64,000 nt of DNA from Dialister succinatiphilus YIT 11850 (GTDB lineage Bacteria > Bacillota > Negativicutes > Veillonellales > Dialisteraceae). Every line of letters begins with the position of its first letter. Position 1 is the stretch's first letter. This document shows positions 8,093 to 17,925 of the stretch, piece by piece. The notes beneath the pieces were generated by a model that searched no databases, had not been told where the DNA came from, and saw only the letters and a list, made by a program, of their open reading frames with translations. The position numbers and the translations under genes are program-made. The stretch is taken from assembly GCF_000242435.1 (NCBI RefSeq), contig NZ_JH591187.1, positions 247,672 through 311,671 of the forward strand, written 5' to 3'.

Positions 8093-10285
8093 ATGCAGGA
8101 GCATTTAAAGGTTGCATATACGAAGAAGGCGCTGGAGCTGTTTGCGCCTATTCCCACACGGAAGGCTGCAGCGGCAGAAGAAACGGATTTCACAGATATT
8201 GCTGCCCTGGTGGTGACGGAGGAAGATGAATCCATTATCCATGACAGAAGGGTTAAGGCTTTTCACATTCCCCTTTTCCTCATCGTCCATGGCCATGAGG
8301 AAAGGACGGATAACACCCTGGGCCATGTGTACGGAATGATTGACACCCGGTCCCTTTCCCGGCCTTATTTTGAACGGCAGATTGAACAGGCCGCATCTTC
8401 CTATGAAGATTCCCTTCTGCCACCCTTCTTTAAGACGCTGAAGAACTATGTGGACTGCGGAAACGCCCAGTTTGACTGCCCTGGGCACCAGGGGGGAGCC
8501 TATTTCAGAAAGCATCCGGCAGGCCGTATTTTTTATGATTTCTATGGGGAAAATACTTTCCGCAGTGACCTCTGCAACGCCGACGTGGCCATGGGGGACC
8601 TTCTCATTCATGAAGGGGCAGCCCTGGCGGCCCAGAAACATGCGGCCCGGGTGTTTAATGCAGACAAAGCCTATTTCATTCTGAACGGCACGTCCGGTGC
8701 CAACAAGGTGGTTATGAATGCCCTCCTCACGCCGGGAGATCTGGTGCTCTATGAAAGAAACAACCATAAGTCCGTAGGCTACGGCGCCCTGATCCAGGCC
8801 GGTGCCATTCCCATCTACCTGGAAACCGCCAGGAACCCCTTCGGCCTCATCGGCGGGGTGCTGGATCACTGCTTTAATGAAGAATACATCCGCATGCTCA
8901 TTGCGGAAAGAGATCCCCGGCGGGCCCGCATGGACAGGCCCCTTCGGGCGGCGGTAATCCAGCTGGGAAATTATGACGGCTGCATTTACAATGCCCGGCA
9001 GGTGGTGGAAAAAATCGGCCATCTCTGCGACTACATCGTCTTCGATTCCGCCTGGGTAGGCTATGAACAGTTCATCCCCATGATGAAGGACTGCAGCCCC
9101 CTGCTCCTTGACCTTAAGCCCGACGACCCCGGCATCATTGTGACCCAGTCCATTCATAAGCAGCAGGCCGGTTTCTCCCAGGCCTCCCAGATTCTGAAAA
9201 AAGACTCTCACATCAAGGGGCAGGCGCGGTATGTGCCTCATAAGATTTTTAATAATGCCTTCATGGTAAATTCATCCACCTCCCCGAACTACCAGATTTT
9301 TGCCTCTCTGGACATGAATGCCAAAATGCAGGAAGGCGATGCAGGGAAAATGCTGTGGCATGAATGCATTATCAATGCCATTGAAGCCAGAAAAAAAGTG
9401 CTCCGCCACTGCCGCTACCTCCGTCCCATTGTTCCCCCTGTGGTCCATGGGAAGAAATGGGAAGAAGGGGATACGGAACAAATGGCGGAGGATATTGCCT
9501 ACTTCGCCTTCGAGCCGGGCGGCAAATGGCACTCCTTCCAGGGCTACGCCAAGGGCCAGTATTTCATAGATCCCCTGAAACTGCAGCTCATGACACCGGG
9601 TATTCATATGGAAACCGGGGAATACGAAGACTTCGGCATTCCCGCCATCATTCTGGCCGATTACCTTCGGGACTGCCAGATTATACCCGAAAAGTGCGAC
9701 CTCAACGATATTCTCTTCCTTATGACGCCGGCCGAATCGAAAACAAAGCTGGATAACCTGATTACCAAGCTCATCCGGTTTGAAGCCCATATAGACAACG
9801 ATTCCCCCATGGAAATGGTACTTCCTACGGTATACAGGAAATATCAGTCCCGCTACGAACGCTACACCATCCGGCAGCTCTGCCAGGAACTCCATGACTT
9901 TTACAAGGCAAAGAAAATCAACGTACTGCAGAAGAAAATGTTCCTGAAAGCCTACTTCCCCGAATATTTCATGAGCCCCCAGGAAGCCAACTGGGCCCTG
10001 GTGAGAGGTCAGGGAGAACTGATCCCTCTGGACGAGGCAGAAGGCAGAGTAGCCCTCCAGGCCGCCGTGCCCTACCCGCCGGGCGTTACCTGCGTGCAGC
10101 CCGGAGAAAGATGGACCCGCATCGCTTTAGACTACTTCCTGGACTTCGCAGAAACCGCCGATATCCTCCCCGGCTTCGCCCCGGAACTGCAGGGCGTGTA
10201 CCTGGAAAAAGACAGCATGGGCCATGGAAAAGCCAAAGGCTATGTGCTGAAAAAGGAATATGAAAAAGACTATAAGAATGGCTGA
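8093..10285 (+). CDS. Inducible-type Orn/Lys/Arg decarboxylase, probably ornithine decarboxylase
   Basis: A 730-residue PLP-dependent fold-I decarboxylase with an N-terminal wing domain (1-105), a PLP domain and a C-terminal domain. The PLP lysine is in SIHKQQ (about K356), and the substrate-region motifs CPGHQGG, ADVAMGDLLIHEG and DSAWVGYEQFIPM are intact. It closely resembles the SpeF-like enzyme at 13.6-15.8 kb, including the motif pattern typical of ornithine rather than lysine enzymes. It would convert ornithine to putrescine and CO2 in the cytoplasm, consuming a proton. AGGAGG lies seven bases before the ATG. It stands alone, 1.9 kb from the antiporter and on the opposite strand from the other copy. 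Confidence 0.85.
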   Translation: MQEHLKVAYTKKALELFAPIPTRKAAAAEETDFTDIAALVVTEEDESIIHDRRVKAFHIPLFLIVHGHEERTDNTLGHVYGMIDTRSLSRPYFERQIEQAASSYEDSLLPPFFKTLKNYVDCGNAQFDCPGHQGGAYFRKHPAGRIFYDFYGENTFRSDLCNADVAMGDLLIHEGAALAAQKHAARVFNADKAYFILNGTSGANKVVMNALLTPGDLVLYERNNHKSVGYGALIQAGAIPIYLETARNPFGLIGGVLDHCFNEEYIRMLIAERDPRRARMDRPLRAAVIQLGNYDGCIYNARQVVEKIGHLCDYIVFDSAWVGYEQFIPMMKDCSPLLLDLKPDDPGIIVTQSIHKQQAGFSQASQILKKDSHIKGQARYVPHKIFNNAFMVNSSTSPNYQIFASLDMNAKMQEGDAGKMLWHECIINAIEARKKVLRHCRYLRPIVPPVVHGKKWEEGDTEQMAEDIAYFAFEPGGKWHSFQGYAKGQYFIDPLKLQLMTPGIHMETGEYEDFGIPAIILADYLRDCQIIPEKCDLNDILFLMTPAESKTKLDNLITKLIRFEAHIDNDSPMEMVLPTVYRKYQSRYERYTIRQLCQELHDFYKAKKINVLQKKMFLKAYFPEYFMSPQEANWALVRGQGELIPLDEAEGRVALQAAVPYPPGVTCVQPGERWTRIALDYFLDFAETADILPGFAPELQGVYLEKDSMGHGKAKGYVLKKEYEKDYKNG

Positions 10286-10343
10286 GAAATAGGGAAATGG
10301 CATCGAGCGAGACCGCTGTCAGGTATCCGCCTTCAGCTTGGCA

Positions 10344-10810
10344 GGGCCGCCCCCTTCCGTCTCGCTGCGCTCGCCACCCACCCCCGGAAAGGGGTGGGCA
10401 GGTAACATGGAGGAGAGGACCACGCCTTTAAGCCTTGCCTCCCACCGCTTGCGGGGGGAGGGGGACCACGAAGTGGTGGTGGGGGGAGGCCTCCAATAGA
10501 GGCCGGTGCCCGCCAAGCGGGCTATAAAACTCATCGCCCGCAGGGCGATACCACCACCCTTTGAACCCTCAGAACCCGGGCCACAGAGTGGCCCATACGG
10601 CCGCCCCCTTCCGTCTCGCTGCGCTCGCCACCCACCCCCAGAAAGGGGGTGGGCAGGTAACATGGAGGAGAGGACTGCGCCCTTAAGCCTTGCCTCCCAC
10701 CGCTTGCGGGGGGAGGGGGACCACGAAGTGGTGGAGGGGGGAGGCCTCCAATGGAGGCCGGTGCTCGCCAAGCGGGCTATAAAAGCCAGTGCCCGCCATG
10801 CGGGCACAAG
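10344..10810. repeat. Two tandem copies of a ~220-bp hairpin-rich unit
   Basis: Copy 1 runs from about 10344 to 10570 and copy 2 from about 10597 to 10808. Each carries, in order: CCGCCCCCTTCCGTCTCGCT, CACCCACCCC..AAAGGGGGTGGG, CTTGCCTCCCACCGCTTGCG, GGGGACCACGAAGTGGTG, GCCTCCAATGGAGGC and GCCAAGCGGGCTATAAA. Each word is a self-complementary hairpin or part of one, and the linkers are constant. A third copy follows the DUF559 gene at 11280. Confidence 0.8.
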
Positions 10811-10897
10811 ATGAGTCAGTAACTAAAAGCTGATATTTAACTGTTCACTGGTGATGCATTCACGTTGCAATATCTACGGCTTCATCCGGAGGCTCCT

Positions 10898-11272
10898 ATG
10901 GATAAGAAATACATGATGCCTGAAGACCGCTCTCTCTTGGAAAAAGCAAAAGAACTTCGAAGTCATATGACACAGGAAGAAAGGAAATTGTGGTATCTTT
11001 TCCTTCGAAAACACCGCTTTCGCTTTTACCGACAGAAAATCATAGGTCACTACATCTGTGACTTTTACTGCCCACAAACCCGCCTGGTCATAGAATTGGA
11101 CGGGAGCCAGCACTACACTGAAAAAGAACTGGCCTACGACATGAAAAGAACCGCTTTCCTTGAAAGCTGTCATATTCATGTTATCCGTTTCTACAATGGG
11201 CAGGTTAACCTTCATTTTAGAGAAGTCTGCATAGAAATCGAAAGGACCATAAAAGAAAGGATAAAAGAGTGA
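10898..11272 (+). CDS. DUF559 (Vsr-like fold) endonuclease-domain protein
   Basis: A 124-residue single-domain protein of the DUF559 family, which shares the PD-(D/E)XK/Vsr nuclease fold. Visible family features are the N-terminal Arg/Lys-rich helix (MTQEERKLWYLFLR), KHRFRFYRQKIIGHYICDFYC, the acidic VIELDGSQHY active-site strand and a late RFYNGQV strand. Such proteins are small predicted nucleases whose role is not settled. ATG 10898 is chosen because CCGGAGG lies six bases upstream; an earlier TTG at 10865 has no such site. It is flanked on both sides by copies of the same hairpin-rich repeat, and its base composition is less GC-rich than that repeat. Confidence 0.85.
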   Translation: MDKKYMMPEDRSLLEKAKELRSHMTQEERKLWYLFLRKHRFRFYRQKIIGHYICDFYCPQTRLVIELDGSQHYTEKELAYDMKRTAFLESCHIHVIRFYNGQVNLHFREVCIEIERTIKERIKE

Positions 11273-11279
11273 AGAATGT

Positions 11280-12090
11280 ACGGCCGCCCCCTTCCGTCTC
11301 GCTGCGCTCGCCACCCACCCCCGGAAAGGGGGTGGGCAGGTAACATGAGAGGACTGCGCTCTTAAGCCTTGCCTCCCACCGCTTGCGAGGGGAGGGGGAC
11401 CACGAAGTGGTGGAGGGGGGAGGCCTCCAATGGAGGCCGGTGCTCGCCAAGCGGGCTATAAAACTCATCGCCCGCAGGGCGATACCACCACCCTTTGAAC
11501 CCGCCTGCCAAAGGCAGGCAGAACCCTCTGAACCCAGGCACCAAAGGCGCCGAACCTTCACGCCCCAAAGGGGCTGTCCATAAGGGCACCCACCTCCCCA
11601 GTGGTAACGCCCTTCGGGCGATGAGTATAAAGTCAGCGTTACGGATTTACCTTTTTGCGTCATACGTTATGATAGGCATTCTGCAGTGGAAACCATACAA
11701 CCGCGCCTGGGGCGCGAGGAAATGTACCCCTATCCCCACCTGCGGCGGTACTTCCCCCGGTGGGGGAAGTCTGCTCTGCGCTTGCCTTACTGCTAACTTA
11801 AGCAGCTCAACACATAGCGGAGAGTAAAGTTCCCCCGCCCGGGTGGCAAAGGAACTGGATTCATAGGGGAGCTCCGTGACCCGCGAATCCAGTGAGACGC
11901 CATCCAGCGAAGTCGGTGTGCATTCCCTCACCCGCCAGGGCGGTTATATAGTTTTTATCATATAATTTGGCGCCTTTTATAATTTAGAGGCGCCCACCAC
12001 AACCCTCACGGCCGTAGGCCGTGTCAAACTTAAGCCCCTTAAGAACCTTCGGCCCGAAGGGCCGTCAACCCTCAAGCCCCATAGGGGCTT
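11280..12090. repeat. Hairpin mosaic downstream of DUF559
   Basis: Begins with a third copy of the ~220-bp unit (11280-11500). Many short hairpins of different stem sequence then follow with the same linkers: CTGCCAAAGGCAG, GGCACCAAAGGCGCC, CCCCAAAGGGG. A module at 11665-11775 (CGCGCC..GGCGCG, GATAGGGGTA, CCCCCGGTGGGGG when read on either strand) recurs inverted at 30600-30720. The AACTGGATT...AATCCAGT element at 11851-11893 recurs near 27.2 and 27.4 kb. No gene is seen. Confidence 0.75.
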
Positions 12091-12096
12091 GTCCAT

Positions 12097-12133
12097 AGAA
12101 AACCACCGCCCTCAAAGAGGACGGTGGTTTTCT
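12097..12133 (-). terminator. Intrinsic terminator after potE
   Basis: Perfect 12-base arms AGAAAACCACCG / CGGTGGTTTTCT with a 13-base loop; the minus-strand transcript ends in TTTTCT. It lies about 50 bases beyond the potE stop. A second, shorter hairpin (TATGGCCTGT / ACAGGCCATA, about 12153-12183) lies between it and the stop. Confidence 0.7.
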
Positions 12134-12186
12134 GTTGTAGAGGATGTTATATGGTATGGCCTGTTCTGCCCCAGACAGGCCATATT

Positions 12187-13563
12187 TTATTTTTCTGCAG
12201 CTGCAGGAACAGCGTCAGCGGGAGCTTTGCCGGAGGCCACGGCTTCGTTGTCGGCTTTGGCCTTTTTCAGGTCGAAGCGGTCGGATACGAAACCGTAGAG
12301 GGTCCAGCCGAATACGGTGACGATGGCGCCGTAGGTCATGGCTTCAAAGCCGGAGGCGTAGCATGCATAGAGGCTGTAGAGGGAAGCGATGAAAGCGATG
12401 AGTTTCGTGGTTTTCAGTTCGCTGCCTACATGATCTACAGCTTTCATGATGACTACCACGGAAGCCATGCAGAGGAGGTAGGGCATGATGTTGGTAATGA
12501 CTGCCAGGTTGACCAGGGTCTCGAACTGTTCGTTCAGGGAGGGGCTGATGGTCATGAGGGAGAAGAGGGACTGAATGATGGTGATGGCCACCATGCCGGC
12601 GATGGGAGCGCCGTGGGAAGTCACTCTCTTCAGGAAGGCCGGGAAGTATCCTTCATCGCTGCCTGCCTTGAATACGTTGGCAATGGTGAACTGCCAGCCC
12701 AGGAGGGAACCGAAGCAGGAGAGAACCATGAGGCCCATGATGATCTTGCCTACGGTGCCGCCAAACATCTGGGAGAATACGAGGCCGAAGGGAGCGGAGC
12801 TGGAGACGAGAACGTCAGCAGGAACGATACCGAAGATAATGTTGGTGGAAACGATGTAGCAGGCTGCTGCCAGCAGGGTGCCGCCGAGAACGGCTTTCGG
12901 CACGTTCTTTTCCGGATTATCCACGGCATCGGCATTGGCGCAGGCCGATTCCATACCCAGAAAAGCCCACAGGGTCATGGTGATGGCGTTCAGTGCAGCT
13001 TCACCGAAGCCCAGGTCATGGACATTCCAGTTAGCGGTGTACATGGAGGGGGAGAACCAGAACCAGCCTACGAAAGCGAGGCCGATACAGGGAATGATGA
13101 CGCCCCATACGGTGATGGAGGAAACCTGGCCGGTATACTTGGCGCCGCCGAAGTTAAGAACGGTAGCCAGCCAGAGGGTGAAGATAGTGGCAGCGCAGGT
13201 CATGACCGGGTCCAGAGTCGTATCCAGGAAACCCAGGGCATAGCCTACGGCGGAAATGGCAATGGCGGTGTTCGCAAAAATCAGGGACACCCCATAGGTG
13301 TAGTTGGCAAGGAAGTTTCCGGCCTTGCCGAAGGAATATTCAGCATAGCCGCCCATGCCGCCGCCTTTTTTACTGTACATGCCGCACTTGGCAAATACAT
13401 AGGCCAGAGCCATGGATCCCACGGCCGTTACCAGCCAGGAAACGATGGACAGGGCACCCACCTGAGCCAGTTTGGATGGCAGCATGATAATGCCGGAACC
13501 CATCATATTGACTGCTGTCAGGATGGTGAGCTGGAAAACGCTCATTTTGTTTGCTTTACTCAT
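12187..13563 (-). CDS. potE: Putrescine-ornithine antiporter
   Basis: A 458-residue APC-superfamily transporter with about 12 membrane spans. The N-terminus (VNMMGSGIIMLPSKLAQVG), the GGMGGYAEYSFGKAGNF block and MTLWAFLGMESACANADAV match E. coli PotE nearly residue for residue, and length is close to the usual ~440. It exchanges external ornithine for internal putrescine across the inner membrane. With the decarboxylase it forms an acid-resistance or proton-motive cycle. It is the second gene after speF, 59 bases downstream on the same strand, with AGGAG before the ATG. An Ala/Lys-rich tail of about 20 residues extends beyond the E. coli protein. Confidence 0.95.
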   Translation of the reverse strand: MSKANKMSVFQLTILTAVNMMGSGIIMLPSKLAQVGALSIVSWLVTAVGSMALAYVFAKCGMYSKKGGGMGGYAEYSFGKAGNFLANYTYGVSLIFANTAIAISAVGYALGFLDTTLDPVMTCAATIFTLWLATVLNFGGAKYTGQVSSITVWGVIIPCIGLAFVGWFWFSPSMYTANWNVHDLGFGEAALNAITMTLWAFLGMESACANADAVDNPEKNVPKAVLGGTLLAAACYIVSTNIIFGIVPADVLVSSSAPFGLVFSQMFGGTVGKIIMGLMVLSCFGSLLGWQFTIANVFKAGSDEGYFPAFLKRVTSHGAPIAGMVAITIIQSLFSLMTISPSLNEQFETLVNLAVITNIMPYLLCMASVVVIMKAVDHVGSELKTTKLIAFIASLYSLYACYASGFEAMTYGAIVTVFGWTLYGFVSDRFDLKKAKADNEAVASGKAPADAVPAAAEK

Positions 13564-13622
13564 GTTTGTCTCCTTTGATAAGGAAGGATGGGGAAACCCT
13601 GTTTCCCCGCTTCCCTATGAGT

Positions 13623-15800
13623 TTATTTCTTTTCAAATTCCTTTTTCAGCACATAGCCATAGGCATGTTTCTTTCCATCAGCGCCAGGCTGTACATAAAC
13701 GCCCTGGATTTCAGGAGCAAAGCCGGGCAGCTGGTTGATGCCTTCCACCAGGTCCAGGAAATAGGTGACAGCGGTTTTGGACCACTTTTCACCGGGATGT
13801 ACGCAGAGTACTCCTGGCGGATAGGGGAGAGCGCCTTCCAGGGCGGTGCGGCCTTCTGCATCAGCCAGGTCCACCAGTTCGCCATGGGCTCTCATGAATT
13901 CATACTGCGCTTCCTGGGGATTCATCACGTATTCCGGGAAATAGTCCTTCAGGAAGAGTTCCTTCTGCAGAGTGGAAACTTTGCGGTCCTTGTAGAAATC
14001 ATGCATTTCCTGGCAGAGACGGCGGATGGTGTAGCCTCTGTATTTTTCTTCGTAAGCGTTATAAATGGAGGGGAGCACTTCAGACATGGGCGCATCCTGG
14101 TCGATGAGCTGTTCGAAACGGATGAGCTTTGCTACCAGGTCGTTCATCTTTGTTTCGCTTTCCGCAGGGGTCATGAGGAAGAGGATGTCGTTGAGATCGC
14201 ATTTTTCCGGAATAATGCCGTTTTCACGGAGATAGTTGGCCAGAATGTTTCCTGGAATGCCGAAATCTTCATAGCCGCCGTTTTCTACATCAATGCCGGC
14301 AGTGACGAACTGCAGCTTCATGGGATCGATGAAGTACTGGCCCTTGCCGTAGCCGTCGAATCCGTGCCATTTGGCGCCCGGTTCGAAAGCCCAGTAATTG
14401 ATGTCGTTAGCCATCTTTTCGGTGTCTCCATCTTCCCATTTCTTTCCGTAAACCACCGGAGGAACCAGAGGACGGATGTAGTGGCAGTTGCGGAGCACCT
14501 GTTTTCTTGTTTCAATCACAAGCTTCACAGCGTCCATCCAGAGCTTTCTGCCTGCTTCGCCTTCATGCATCTTGGCATTCACGTCAAGGGCTGCGAAAAG
14601 CTGGTACAGCGGGGAAGTGGAAGCGTGCATCATGAATGCATTGTTCACTCTCTTATGAGGTACATAGCGGTCCTGGCCTTTAATGTGAGAGTCTTTCTTG
14701 TGAATCTGGGAGGTCATGGAGAAGCCGGCCTGCTGTTTGTGGACGGACTGGGTGACGAAGATGCCGGGATCTTCCGGTCCCAGGTCCAGAAGCAGAGGAG
14801 AGCAGTCCTTCATCATGGGGATAAACTGTTCATAGCCTACCCATGCGGAATCGAAGAAAATGTAGTCGCAGAGATGGCCGATCTTATCCACTACCTGGCG
14901 GGCATTATAGATGCAGCCGTCGTAGGTGCCCAGCTGAATCACTGCCAGGCGGATCGGTCTTTTAGCCTTGGCTTTTACCGGATCCTTTTCAGCCACCAGT
15001 TTCCGGATGTAATCTTCATTGAAGCAGTGTTCCGGAATGCCGCCGATGGAGCCGAAGGCATTTCTTTCCGTTTCCAGATATACCGGAGTTGCGCCGGCCA
15101 GTACCAGAGCGCCGTGGTCAATGGACTTATGGTTGTTTCTGTCGTAGAGGACGATATCGCCAGGAGTGAGGACAGCGTTGAGCACCACCTTGTTGGATGT
15201 GGAAGTGCCGTTCAGTACGAAGTAGGTCTTGTCGGCGTTGTATACCCGGGCTGCATGCTTCTGGGCTGCCAGAGCCGGGCCTTCATGAATGAGGAGATCC
15301 CCCATGGCCACGTCGGCGTTGCACAGGTCGGCGCGGAAAGTGTTTTCACCGAAGAAATCGTAGAATGCGCGGCCTGCAGGATGCTTGCGGAAGAAAGCGC
15401 CGCCCTGATGGCCTGGGCAGTCAAACTGGGAGTATCCGTTTTCCACGTATTTTTCCAGATCCTTGAAGAATGGGGGCAGTACTTTTTCTTCATAATGGGA
15501 AGCAGCGCTTTCAATCTGGCGGCTGTAGAAAGCATGATCCGTGTCGTTCAGGTCAATCACCCGATATACCTTGCTGATGACATCATCGGCTACCGGGCCT
15601 TCCTTGGTGCGGATGAGAAGTACCGGAATATGGAAGGCAAAAATCATTTCCTTCTTGAGCACATCGGTATCGGTGTCTGTAATGACTACGGCACCTACAT
15701 CGGTAAAGTCGGTATCATTGACGTTTACCGTTTCGCGGGATGGAATGGCTCCGAAAATTTCGAGTGCTTTGTCAGAGTAAGCAATTTTTAAACGTTTCAC
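13623..15800 (-). CDS. speF: Inducible ornithine decarboxylase
   Basis: A 725-residue PLP enzyme converting ornithine to putrescine. It aligns along its length with E. coli SpeF: AASHYE...LPPFF, CPGHQGG, NADVAMGDLLIHEG, GTSTSNKVVLNA, FDSAWVGYEQFIPMM and the PLP lysine in SVHKQQAGFS (about K355). The start is GTG at 15800, supported by AGGAGG eight bases upstream. It is followed by potE, the classic acid-inducible speF-potE arrangement. The unusually long upstream region (about 390 bases) suggests leader regulation; in enterobacteria speF is controlled by a leader peptide, but no equivalent peptide was recognised here. Confidence 0.95.
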   Translation of the reverse strand: MKRLKIAYSDKALEIFGAIPSRETVNVNDTDFTDVGAVVITDTDTDVLKKEMIFAFHIPVLLIRTKEGPVADDVISKVYRVIDLNDTDHAFYSRQIESAASHYEEKVLPPFFKDLEKYVENGYSQFDCPGHQGGAFFRKHPAGRAFYDFFGENTFRADLCNADVAMGDLLIHEGPALAAQKHAARVYNADKTYFVLNGTSTSNKVVLNAVLTPGDIVLYDRNNHKSIDHGALVLAGATPVYLETERNAFGSIGGIPEHCFNEDYIRKLVAEKDPVKAKAKRPIRLAVIQLGTYDGCIYNARQVVDKIGHLCDYIFFDSAWVGYEQFIPMMKDCSPLLLDLGPEDPGIFVTQSVHKQQAGFSMTSQIHKKDSHIKGQDRYVPHKRVNNAFMMHASTSPLYQLFAALDVNAKMHEGEAGRKLWMDAVKLVIETRKQVLRNCHYIRPLVPPVVYGKKWEDGDTEKMANDINYWAFEPGAKWHGFDGYGKGQYFIDPMKLQFVTAGIDVENGGYEDFGIPGNILANYLRENGIIPEKCDLNDILFLMTPAESETKMNDLVAKLIRFEQLIDQDAPMSEVLPSIYNAYEEKYRGYTIRRLCQEMHDFYKDRKVSTLQKELFLKDYFPEYVMNPQEAQYEFMRAHGELVDLADAEGRTALEGALPYPPGVLCVHPGEKWSKTAVTYFLDLVEGINQLPGFAPEIQGVYVQPGADGKKHAYGYVLKKEFEKK

Positions 15801-17599: not shown

Positions 17600-17925
17600 T
17601 CTAGCACTTGCACTCCCCTGAATGAGGGCGGGGAAGTAAAATAGTGGAGAGGATCGCACTCTTTAAAATCTGCGGCGTCAGCCGCCACCACAACCTCTGA
17701 ACTATCGGAACCCGGGCCGCAGAGCGGGCCCATACAGCCGCCCCCTTCCGACTCGCTGCGCTCGCCACCCACCCCGGAAAGGGGGTGGGCAAGTAAAAAG
17801 GAGGAGAGGGACGTACTCTTTAAAATTTGCGGCGTCAGCCGCCACCACTACCCTCGGCCTGAAAGGCCGTCAAACTTACGAACCCTCCGGCCGTCAGGCC
17901 GGTCAATCCTAAGAACCTTTTCCAT
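17600..17925. repeat. Hairpin mosaic
   Basis: Contains a partial copy of the 10.3-kb unit (17735-17815: CCGCCCCCTTCCGACTCGCT, ACCCCGGAAAGGGGGTGGG). GCGGCGTCAGCCGCCACCAC occurs at about 17671 and 17830. Then come CTCGGCCTGAAAGGCCGTCA and CCGGCCGTCAGGCCGGTCAA joined by ACTTACGAACCCT-type linkers. No gene is seen. Confidence 0.75.

Follow-up and report, generated by a model that had tools for sequence, protein, structure and literature searches.

Among the closest described systems are two kinds of palindromic repeat. REP sequences and REPINs are defined by a tag, GTAG or CGTC, at the palindrome's foot (PMC3733652). BoxC/PIT/TM repeats, known since the 1990s, present in more than 260 genomes and linked to genome instability, have the consensus CCCTCNCCCN3-6GGGNGAGGGN3GGGNGAGGG and form inverted pairs in E. 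coli, where variability and loss of TM sites have been published; their origin and any mobilizing enzyme were unknown, and a 2015 paper reported no mobility activities near TM sites (PMC4666352). The DUF559 protein YcjD was assigned long ago to the PD-(D/E)XK superfamily, near Vsr (PMC1189080), and in Legionella a transposase/DUF559 segment is among the recombination hotspots (PMC12308824). We found no paper linking DUF559 or YcjD to BoxC, triplex or REP repeats, in a literature search that had most subscription journals and preprints outside its scope.

The DUF559 gene, its repeat units and its product

We analysed a 64-kb stretch of DNA (the window) from a 2.5-Mb genome. It contains a DUF559 gene on the + strand at 10898..11272, with an ATG at 10898, a stop at 11272 and GGAGG shortly 5' of the start. 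The 124-residue product matches PF04480 with an E-value of 3.5e-30 (104.5 bits; the Pfam gathering cut-off is 20.6), and profile match and modelled fold indicate a YcjD-like PD-(D/E)XK nuclease. Its closest relative, 82% identical, comes from a Dialister metagenome. The left neighbor is an Orn/Lys/Arg decarboxylase gene (8093..10285, + strand) and the right neighbor an amino acid permease gene (12187..13563, − strand).

An earlier note on this DNA had described two repeat units before the gene and one after it, and nucleotide searches agree: unit 1 is at 10346..10595 (core 10347-10529), unit 2 at 10600..10800 and unit 3 at 11283..11480, and they are 95-96% alike across about 184 bp. A BLASTN query of 10601-10800 against the window matched 10347-10529 (95.7%) and 11284-11463 (96.2%), and beyond units 1 and 3 it found a single gene-less 73-bp fragment (17738..17809, + strand) and nothing further. 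A further mosaic of small palindromes extends over 11463..12070, for example ACTCATCGCCCGCAGGGCGATACCAC and its inverse at 11601-11626. Elsewhere in the genome there are unit fragments at about 49 sites; none matches the 1157-bp stretch over more than about 125 bp, so that only the window DUF559 gene has full units. The longest and most complete units in the genome adjoin this gene. The claim that no other gene has such a setting holds inside the window but not genome-wide, where adjacency was judged through sequence searches: two further DUF559 genes (C2 and C3) are each flanked by repeats, of different sequence.

In all three units the sequence comprises two palindromes that are inverted relative to each other. 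In unit 1, motif a (10346..10399, − strand) has a hairpin GCCCACCCC/GGGGTGGG, a spacer GGCGAGCGCAGCGAGAC and a purine tract GGAAGGGGG, and motif b (10437..10490, + strand) has a hairpin CCTCCC/GGGAGG, a mini-hairpin ACCACGAAGTGGT and a third purine strand GGGGGGAGGC. Read on the + strand, motif b runs GCCTCCC-ACCGCTTGCGG-GGGGAGG, then GGGACCACGAAGTGGTGGA, then GGGGGGAGGC, so that a hairpin whose 5' arm is pyrimidine precedes a GAA-loop mini-hairpin and then the extra purine strand; motif a has the same order of parts in different letters. The corresponding motifs are at 10600-10654 (−) and 10692-10745 (+) in unit 2, and at 11283-11337 (−) and 11371-11424 (+) in unit 3. DNA secondary-structure folding gave z = -2.6 for motif b of unit 1 and no strong significance for motif a (z from -0.4 to -1.1). 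The motif detector that we also used on other genomes matched the window at 10377-10693, 11336 and 11372.

Both motifs in each of the three units follow the broad triplex-type plan, a hairpin with pyrimidine and purine arms and then more purine strand, and on this sequence pattern the window units are of the BoxC/PIT/TM intrastrand-triplex type in the broad sense. Hairpin plus third purine strand, inverted pairs and a broad phyletic range are common to both (PMC4666352). However, the spacer of the window unit is longer and contains a mini-hairpin, and the window has no match to the strict TM_ECO consensus with up to 2 mismatches allowed. An exact match to that consensus adjoins E. coli ycjD, and several further DUF559 loci have matches with 2 mismatches. 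No mobility gene was reported near published TM sites (PMC4666352), whereas here a nuclease gene is linked to the repeats. The reading in the earlier note is partly supported: the link between gene and repeats extends across phyla, but the repeats are of a type already described in many genomes.

Mini-hairpins with GNA triloops (GAA, GCA), which are highly stable in DNA, are about threefold denser in the flanks of Negativicutes DUF559 genes than in control flanks, an enrichment that is suggestive only. On the permease side of the locus, a near-perfect 17-bp inverted repeat at 12097-12133 (AGAAAACCACCGCCCTC..GAGGACGGTGGTTTTCT) is probably a bidirectional terminator. The permease itself lies between two Orn/Lys/Arg decarboxylase paralogs (8093-15800), a module whose arrangement differs among congeners.

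A single-sequence structure model of the protein was poor (pLDDT 49), and we used an alignment-based model with a pLDDT of 91. The model resembles 3hrl, a Neisseria protein (Z = 16.5); the homing endonuclease I-Bth0305I (Z = 13.9, 2.4 Å over 95 residues), which indicates an I-Bth0305I-like catalytic fold; and Vsr (Z = 11.3), in line with the Vsr fold proposed earlier. A match to TnsA (Z = 7.1) is within background and was given no weight. In an alignment of DUF559 proteins the residues R, E, Q, D, E, D, H, D, R and R are invariant, and E, D and H among them are typical of EDxHD-type active sites. As modelled, the window enzyme is a PD-(D/E)XK/EDxHD-type nuclease and not a HUH transposase, and its fold and conserved E/D/H residues suggest that it cuts the repeats. 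Vsr, which nicks at T:G mismatches, shares the fold, but DUF559 is set among repeats and we saw no evidence of mismatch repair here. TnsA of Tn7 is likewise a PD-(D/E)XK nuclease and cuts transposon ends, but it requires TnsB, and we saw no partner gene beside DUF559.

Multicopy cassettes, occupied sites and empty sites

DUF559 genes occur in discrete multicopy cassettes with inverted ends, and at sites that are occupied in one genome and empty in relatives. One genome (G447) has three cassettes of about 811 bp that are 94-95% alike, with sharp edges and inverted ends made of nested hairpins; two others (G402 and G505) similarly have near-identical, clear-edged cassettes at separate places, and in G525 a cassette is duplicated in tandem through its repeats. 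Terminal inverted repeats, as expected of transposons, are present at the multicopy cassettes of G447 and G402 and at Deinococcus loci, where DUF559 lies between inverted motifs within paa or hpa clusters at a position that varies by species. At locus L200 (9515-10745) an entire DUF559 cassette has been doubled in tandem by way of its repeats, as a 635-bp match of 99.4% identity with a spacing of 596 bp.

On two plasmids of Synechocystis B12, DUF559 cassettes are located inside methyltransferase genes (the pglX and DUF1156 sites). The pglX site is empty in the Planktothrix and Oscillatoria homologs; in Pseudanabaena galeata it holds a gene-less inverted pair of about 95 bp, in frame; and in Synechocystis B12 it holds ends like those of the P. 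galeata pair with DUF559 between them. Gene-less pairs of this kind are abundant, recurring on other cyanobacterial plasmids. The Synechocystis host genes also show frame changes, and the DUF1156 site also lacks a stretch of variable host codons. At the window locus, the gap between decarboxylase and permease genes is about 1967 bp, as against 215 bp, with no DUF559 gene, in the congener G004. The empty and occupied versions of the pglX, DUF1156 and decarboxylase-permease sites are too distant from each other to resolve a target-site duplication. P. galeata pglX has two in-frame inverted BoxC-type pairs of about 95 bp (L285:210-310 and L285:716-810), which translate to SPxPLAPSPKGxG...GLGVR, and similar pieces are found within Planktothrix DUF1156 genes.

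We consider it fairly probable that the DUF559 gene forms one mobile system with its flanking repeats, in which the nuclease cuts its cognate repeat and repair or strand transfer makes copies. The mobile unit would be an inverted pair of purine/pyrimidine-asymmetric palindromes of the BoxC/intrastrand-triplex type, each with a pyrimidine-5'-arm hairpin, a short spacer or mini-hairpin and a further purine-rich strand. A solitary YcjD-like nuclease gene between two palindrome ends would be the autonomous form, and a gene-less inverted pair the non-autonomous form. The cognate repeat would probably be recognized by the nuclease, perhaps in the form of a hairpin that is extruded or single-stranded, and would then be cut; repair or strand transfer would carry the pair or the entire cassette to new sites, and the same process could expand, contract and recombine repeat arrays. 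In this scheme we infer the recognition, the cutting, the direction of movement and the repair route.

By analogy, the best reading is of a REPIN/RAYT-like system with an unrelated enzyme. The comparison with RAYT and REP made in the earlier note is apt for the anatomy (inverted pairs with and without a gene, cognate subfamilies, multicopy cassettes and sites empty in relatives) but not for the enzyme. In both systems a dedicated gene appears to stand beside cognate palindromes, with inverted pairs as the non-autonomous form and subfamilies that follow the gene. However, a RAYT (TnpA-REP) is a Y1_Tnp protein encoded beside the repeats, and the window genome has no PF01797; the DUF559 enzyme is predicted to be of PD-(D/E)XK/EDxHD type rather than HUH Y1, multiple DUF559 copies per genome are common, and the DUF559 palindromes are purine/pyrimidine asymmetric with an extra purine strand. 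If the reading is right, a partnership of the REP/RAYT kind has also evolved around an unrelated enzyme, and a long-standing domain of unknown function gains a function.

There is a modest chance that the cassettes are instead homing-type elements, in which DUF559 would be a sequence-specific nuclease, the cassette would be copied by double-strand-break repair via the flanking repeats, and the repeats would be repair substrates or scars and not transposon ends. The closest functionally described structural match is I-Bth0305I, which resembles DUF559 in its catalytic-domain fold, its conserved E/D/H residues and its insertion into genes; the insertions within conserved genes (pglX and DUF1156) and the tandem duplication via repeats in G525 also fit. 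But DUF559 stands alone among interspersed repeats, with no intron or intein seen, and its cassettes occupy numerous sites that are unrelated to each other, with several in one genome, whereas classical homing uses one site; moreover, gene-less pairs with the same ends are abundant.

Repeat numbers and cognate repeats

Among Negativicutes genomes, at least 10 copies of the pattern CCTCCCCN3-8GGGGAGG are present in 17 of the 63 with DUF559 but in only 3 of the 237 without it (P = 3e-10), which bears out the expectation that arrays should be rarer where DUF559 is absent. The reversed pattern, used as a control, is near zero in all genomes, so the polarity is specific. Many hairpins also occur in three genomes without detected DUF559 (G446, G537 and G588), and BoxC copies persist in E. 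coli strains that lack ycjD; the repeats can therefore outlast the gene.

These numbers make it improbable that DUF559 is a host-protective nuclease that removes or trims structure-forming repeats and is found near them because they are its substrate. A Vsr-like fold and the variability and loss of TM sites in E. coli would suit such a role, but genomes with DUF559 are richer, not poorer, in repeats, and in the window genome it is the most complete units that adjoin the gene.

Of 5426 complete E. coli genomes, about 3333 have ycjD, between sapF and fabI (L259-L262); in strain N96 the region is present in an 86%-identical version. E. coli strains without ycjD are unusable as a clean empty site because the eef efflux operon occupies the same place in the strains read (PMC12817139).

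In genomes with several DUF559 copies, the repeat type follows the protein, as judged by sequence comparison. Paralogous pairs that are at least 83% identical have flanking repeats in common (cross scores 78-185), whereas pairs below 75% identity mostly have different repeats (median cross score 28), although both members can be flanked by strong repeats. Over 56 pairs, the Spearman correlation between protein identity and repeat cross score is 0.65. In G003, for example, repeat scores are 178, 275 and 209 within loci and 25-55 between loci. The 1.3-Mb genome G402 has eight DUF559 copies (L223-L226, L250) in at least three repeat-specific groups.

Association across genes and phyla

The association between DUF559 genes and repeats is real and general. 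Our sample was 80 DUF559 gene regions, each of up to 20 kb and mostly from Negativicutes, in which we aligned the 700 bp before each gene locally with the 700 bp after it; this comparison presupposes no motif. DUF559 genes that form part of long helicase-like proteins were excluded from the solitary set and treated as a separate group. A score of at least 40 was obtained for 60% of the 80 solitary DUF559 genes but for 5% of the 793 other genes in these regions (Fisher's test, P = 3e-33). With weighting by genus the proportions were 61% observed and 10% expected, a difference reached in 0 of 5000 permutations. Chance is thus excluded as the source of the two-sided repeats. Between about a quarter and 40% of the solitary DUF559 genes, among them both in G004, are without clear two-sided repeats.

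A motif detector applied to the same sample was positive at 76% of DUF559 genes and 27% of controls (41% of gap-matched controls). Because the detector had been shaped on some of the tested flanks, we applied it unchanged to unread viral contigs from IMG/VR, an independent set, where it was positive at 14 of 18 solitary YcjD-like genes and 37 of 536 controls. Plasmid-collection records from Proteobacteria, Deinococcota and Cyanobacteria had the motif at 18 of 22 ORF calls (18 of 20 loci), compared to 37 of 214 controls; one Bacillota plasmid in this set was negative. At high-GC plasmid loci the flank-to-flank score is weak (11 of 22 versus 55 of 214, P = 0.02) because high-GC controls also score high, and the signal is carried by the motif count. 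The expectation that DUF559 genes lie near such units more often than chance was therefore confirmed in Negativicutes, in viral contigs and in other phyla.

It is quite improbable that gene and repeats are mere passengers that share variable intergenic regions, with arrays building up wherever accessory genes land. Controls with long gaps on both sides do score above the average control (13% versus 5%), and some genomes without DUF559 are hairpin rich. But DUF559 genes still differ about tenfold in odds from these gap-matched controls (P = 6e-14), so we reject a repeat-rich neighborhood as the sole cause; in addition, fused or distant DUF559-like domains show no association (distant ones in IMG/VR ORFs are control-like, at 4 of 45), and repeat and protein co-vary. 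That a Y1 (RAYT/IS200) transposase moves the repeats, with DUF559 incidental, is scarcely credible and we reject it, even though RAYTs are the known partners of REPs (PMC3733652, PMC2817692), because the window genome lacks Y1_Tnp and, among Negativicutes genomes, the number of hairpin copies shows no relation to whether Y1_Tnp is present (P = 0.8 for 10 or more copies).

Because the pairing of DUF559 with BoxC-type repeats recurs in several phyla, DUF559 probably supplies the partner that these repeats have lacked, an enzyme that spreads or remodels them. The link can be tested directly, because the structure of one member of this small nuclease family has been solved (3hrl) and E. coli K-12 encodes another (ycjD). 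It is possible, though we lean slightly against it, that one ancient mobile superfamily has BoxC/PIT/TM repeats as its non-autonomous members and, as its autonomous one, a single DUF559 gene whose product cuts and spreads structured (hairpin or triplex) DNA; if so, this would be a class of mobile element without a DDE, HUH or known recombinase enzyme. Photobacterium pGJ3-1 (L263) has long arrays, with up to about 29 listed hairpins in 2.5 kb; such arrays are present at several sites on this one 1.7-Mb replicon, and one is immediately 3' of a DUF559 gene.
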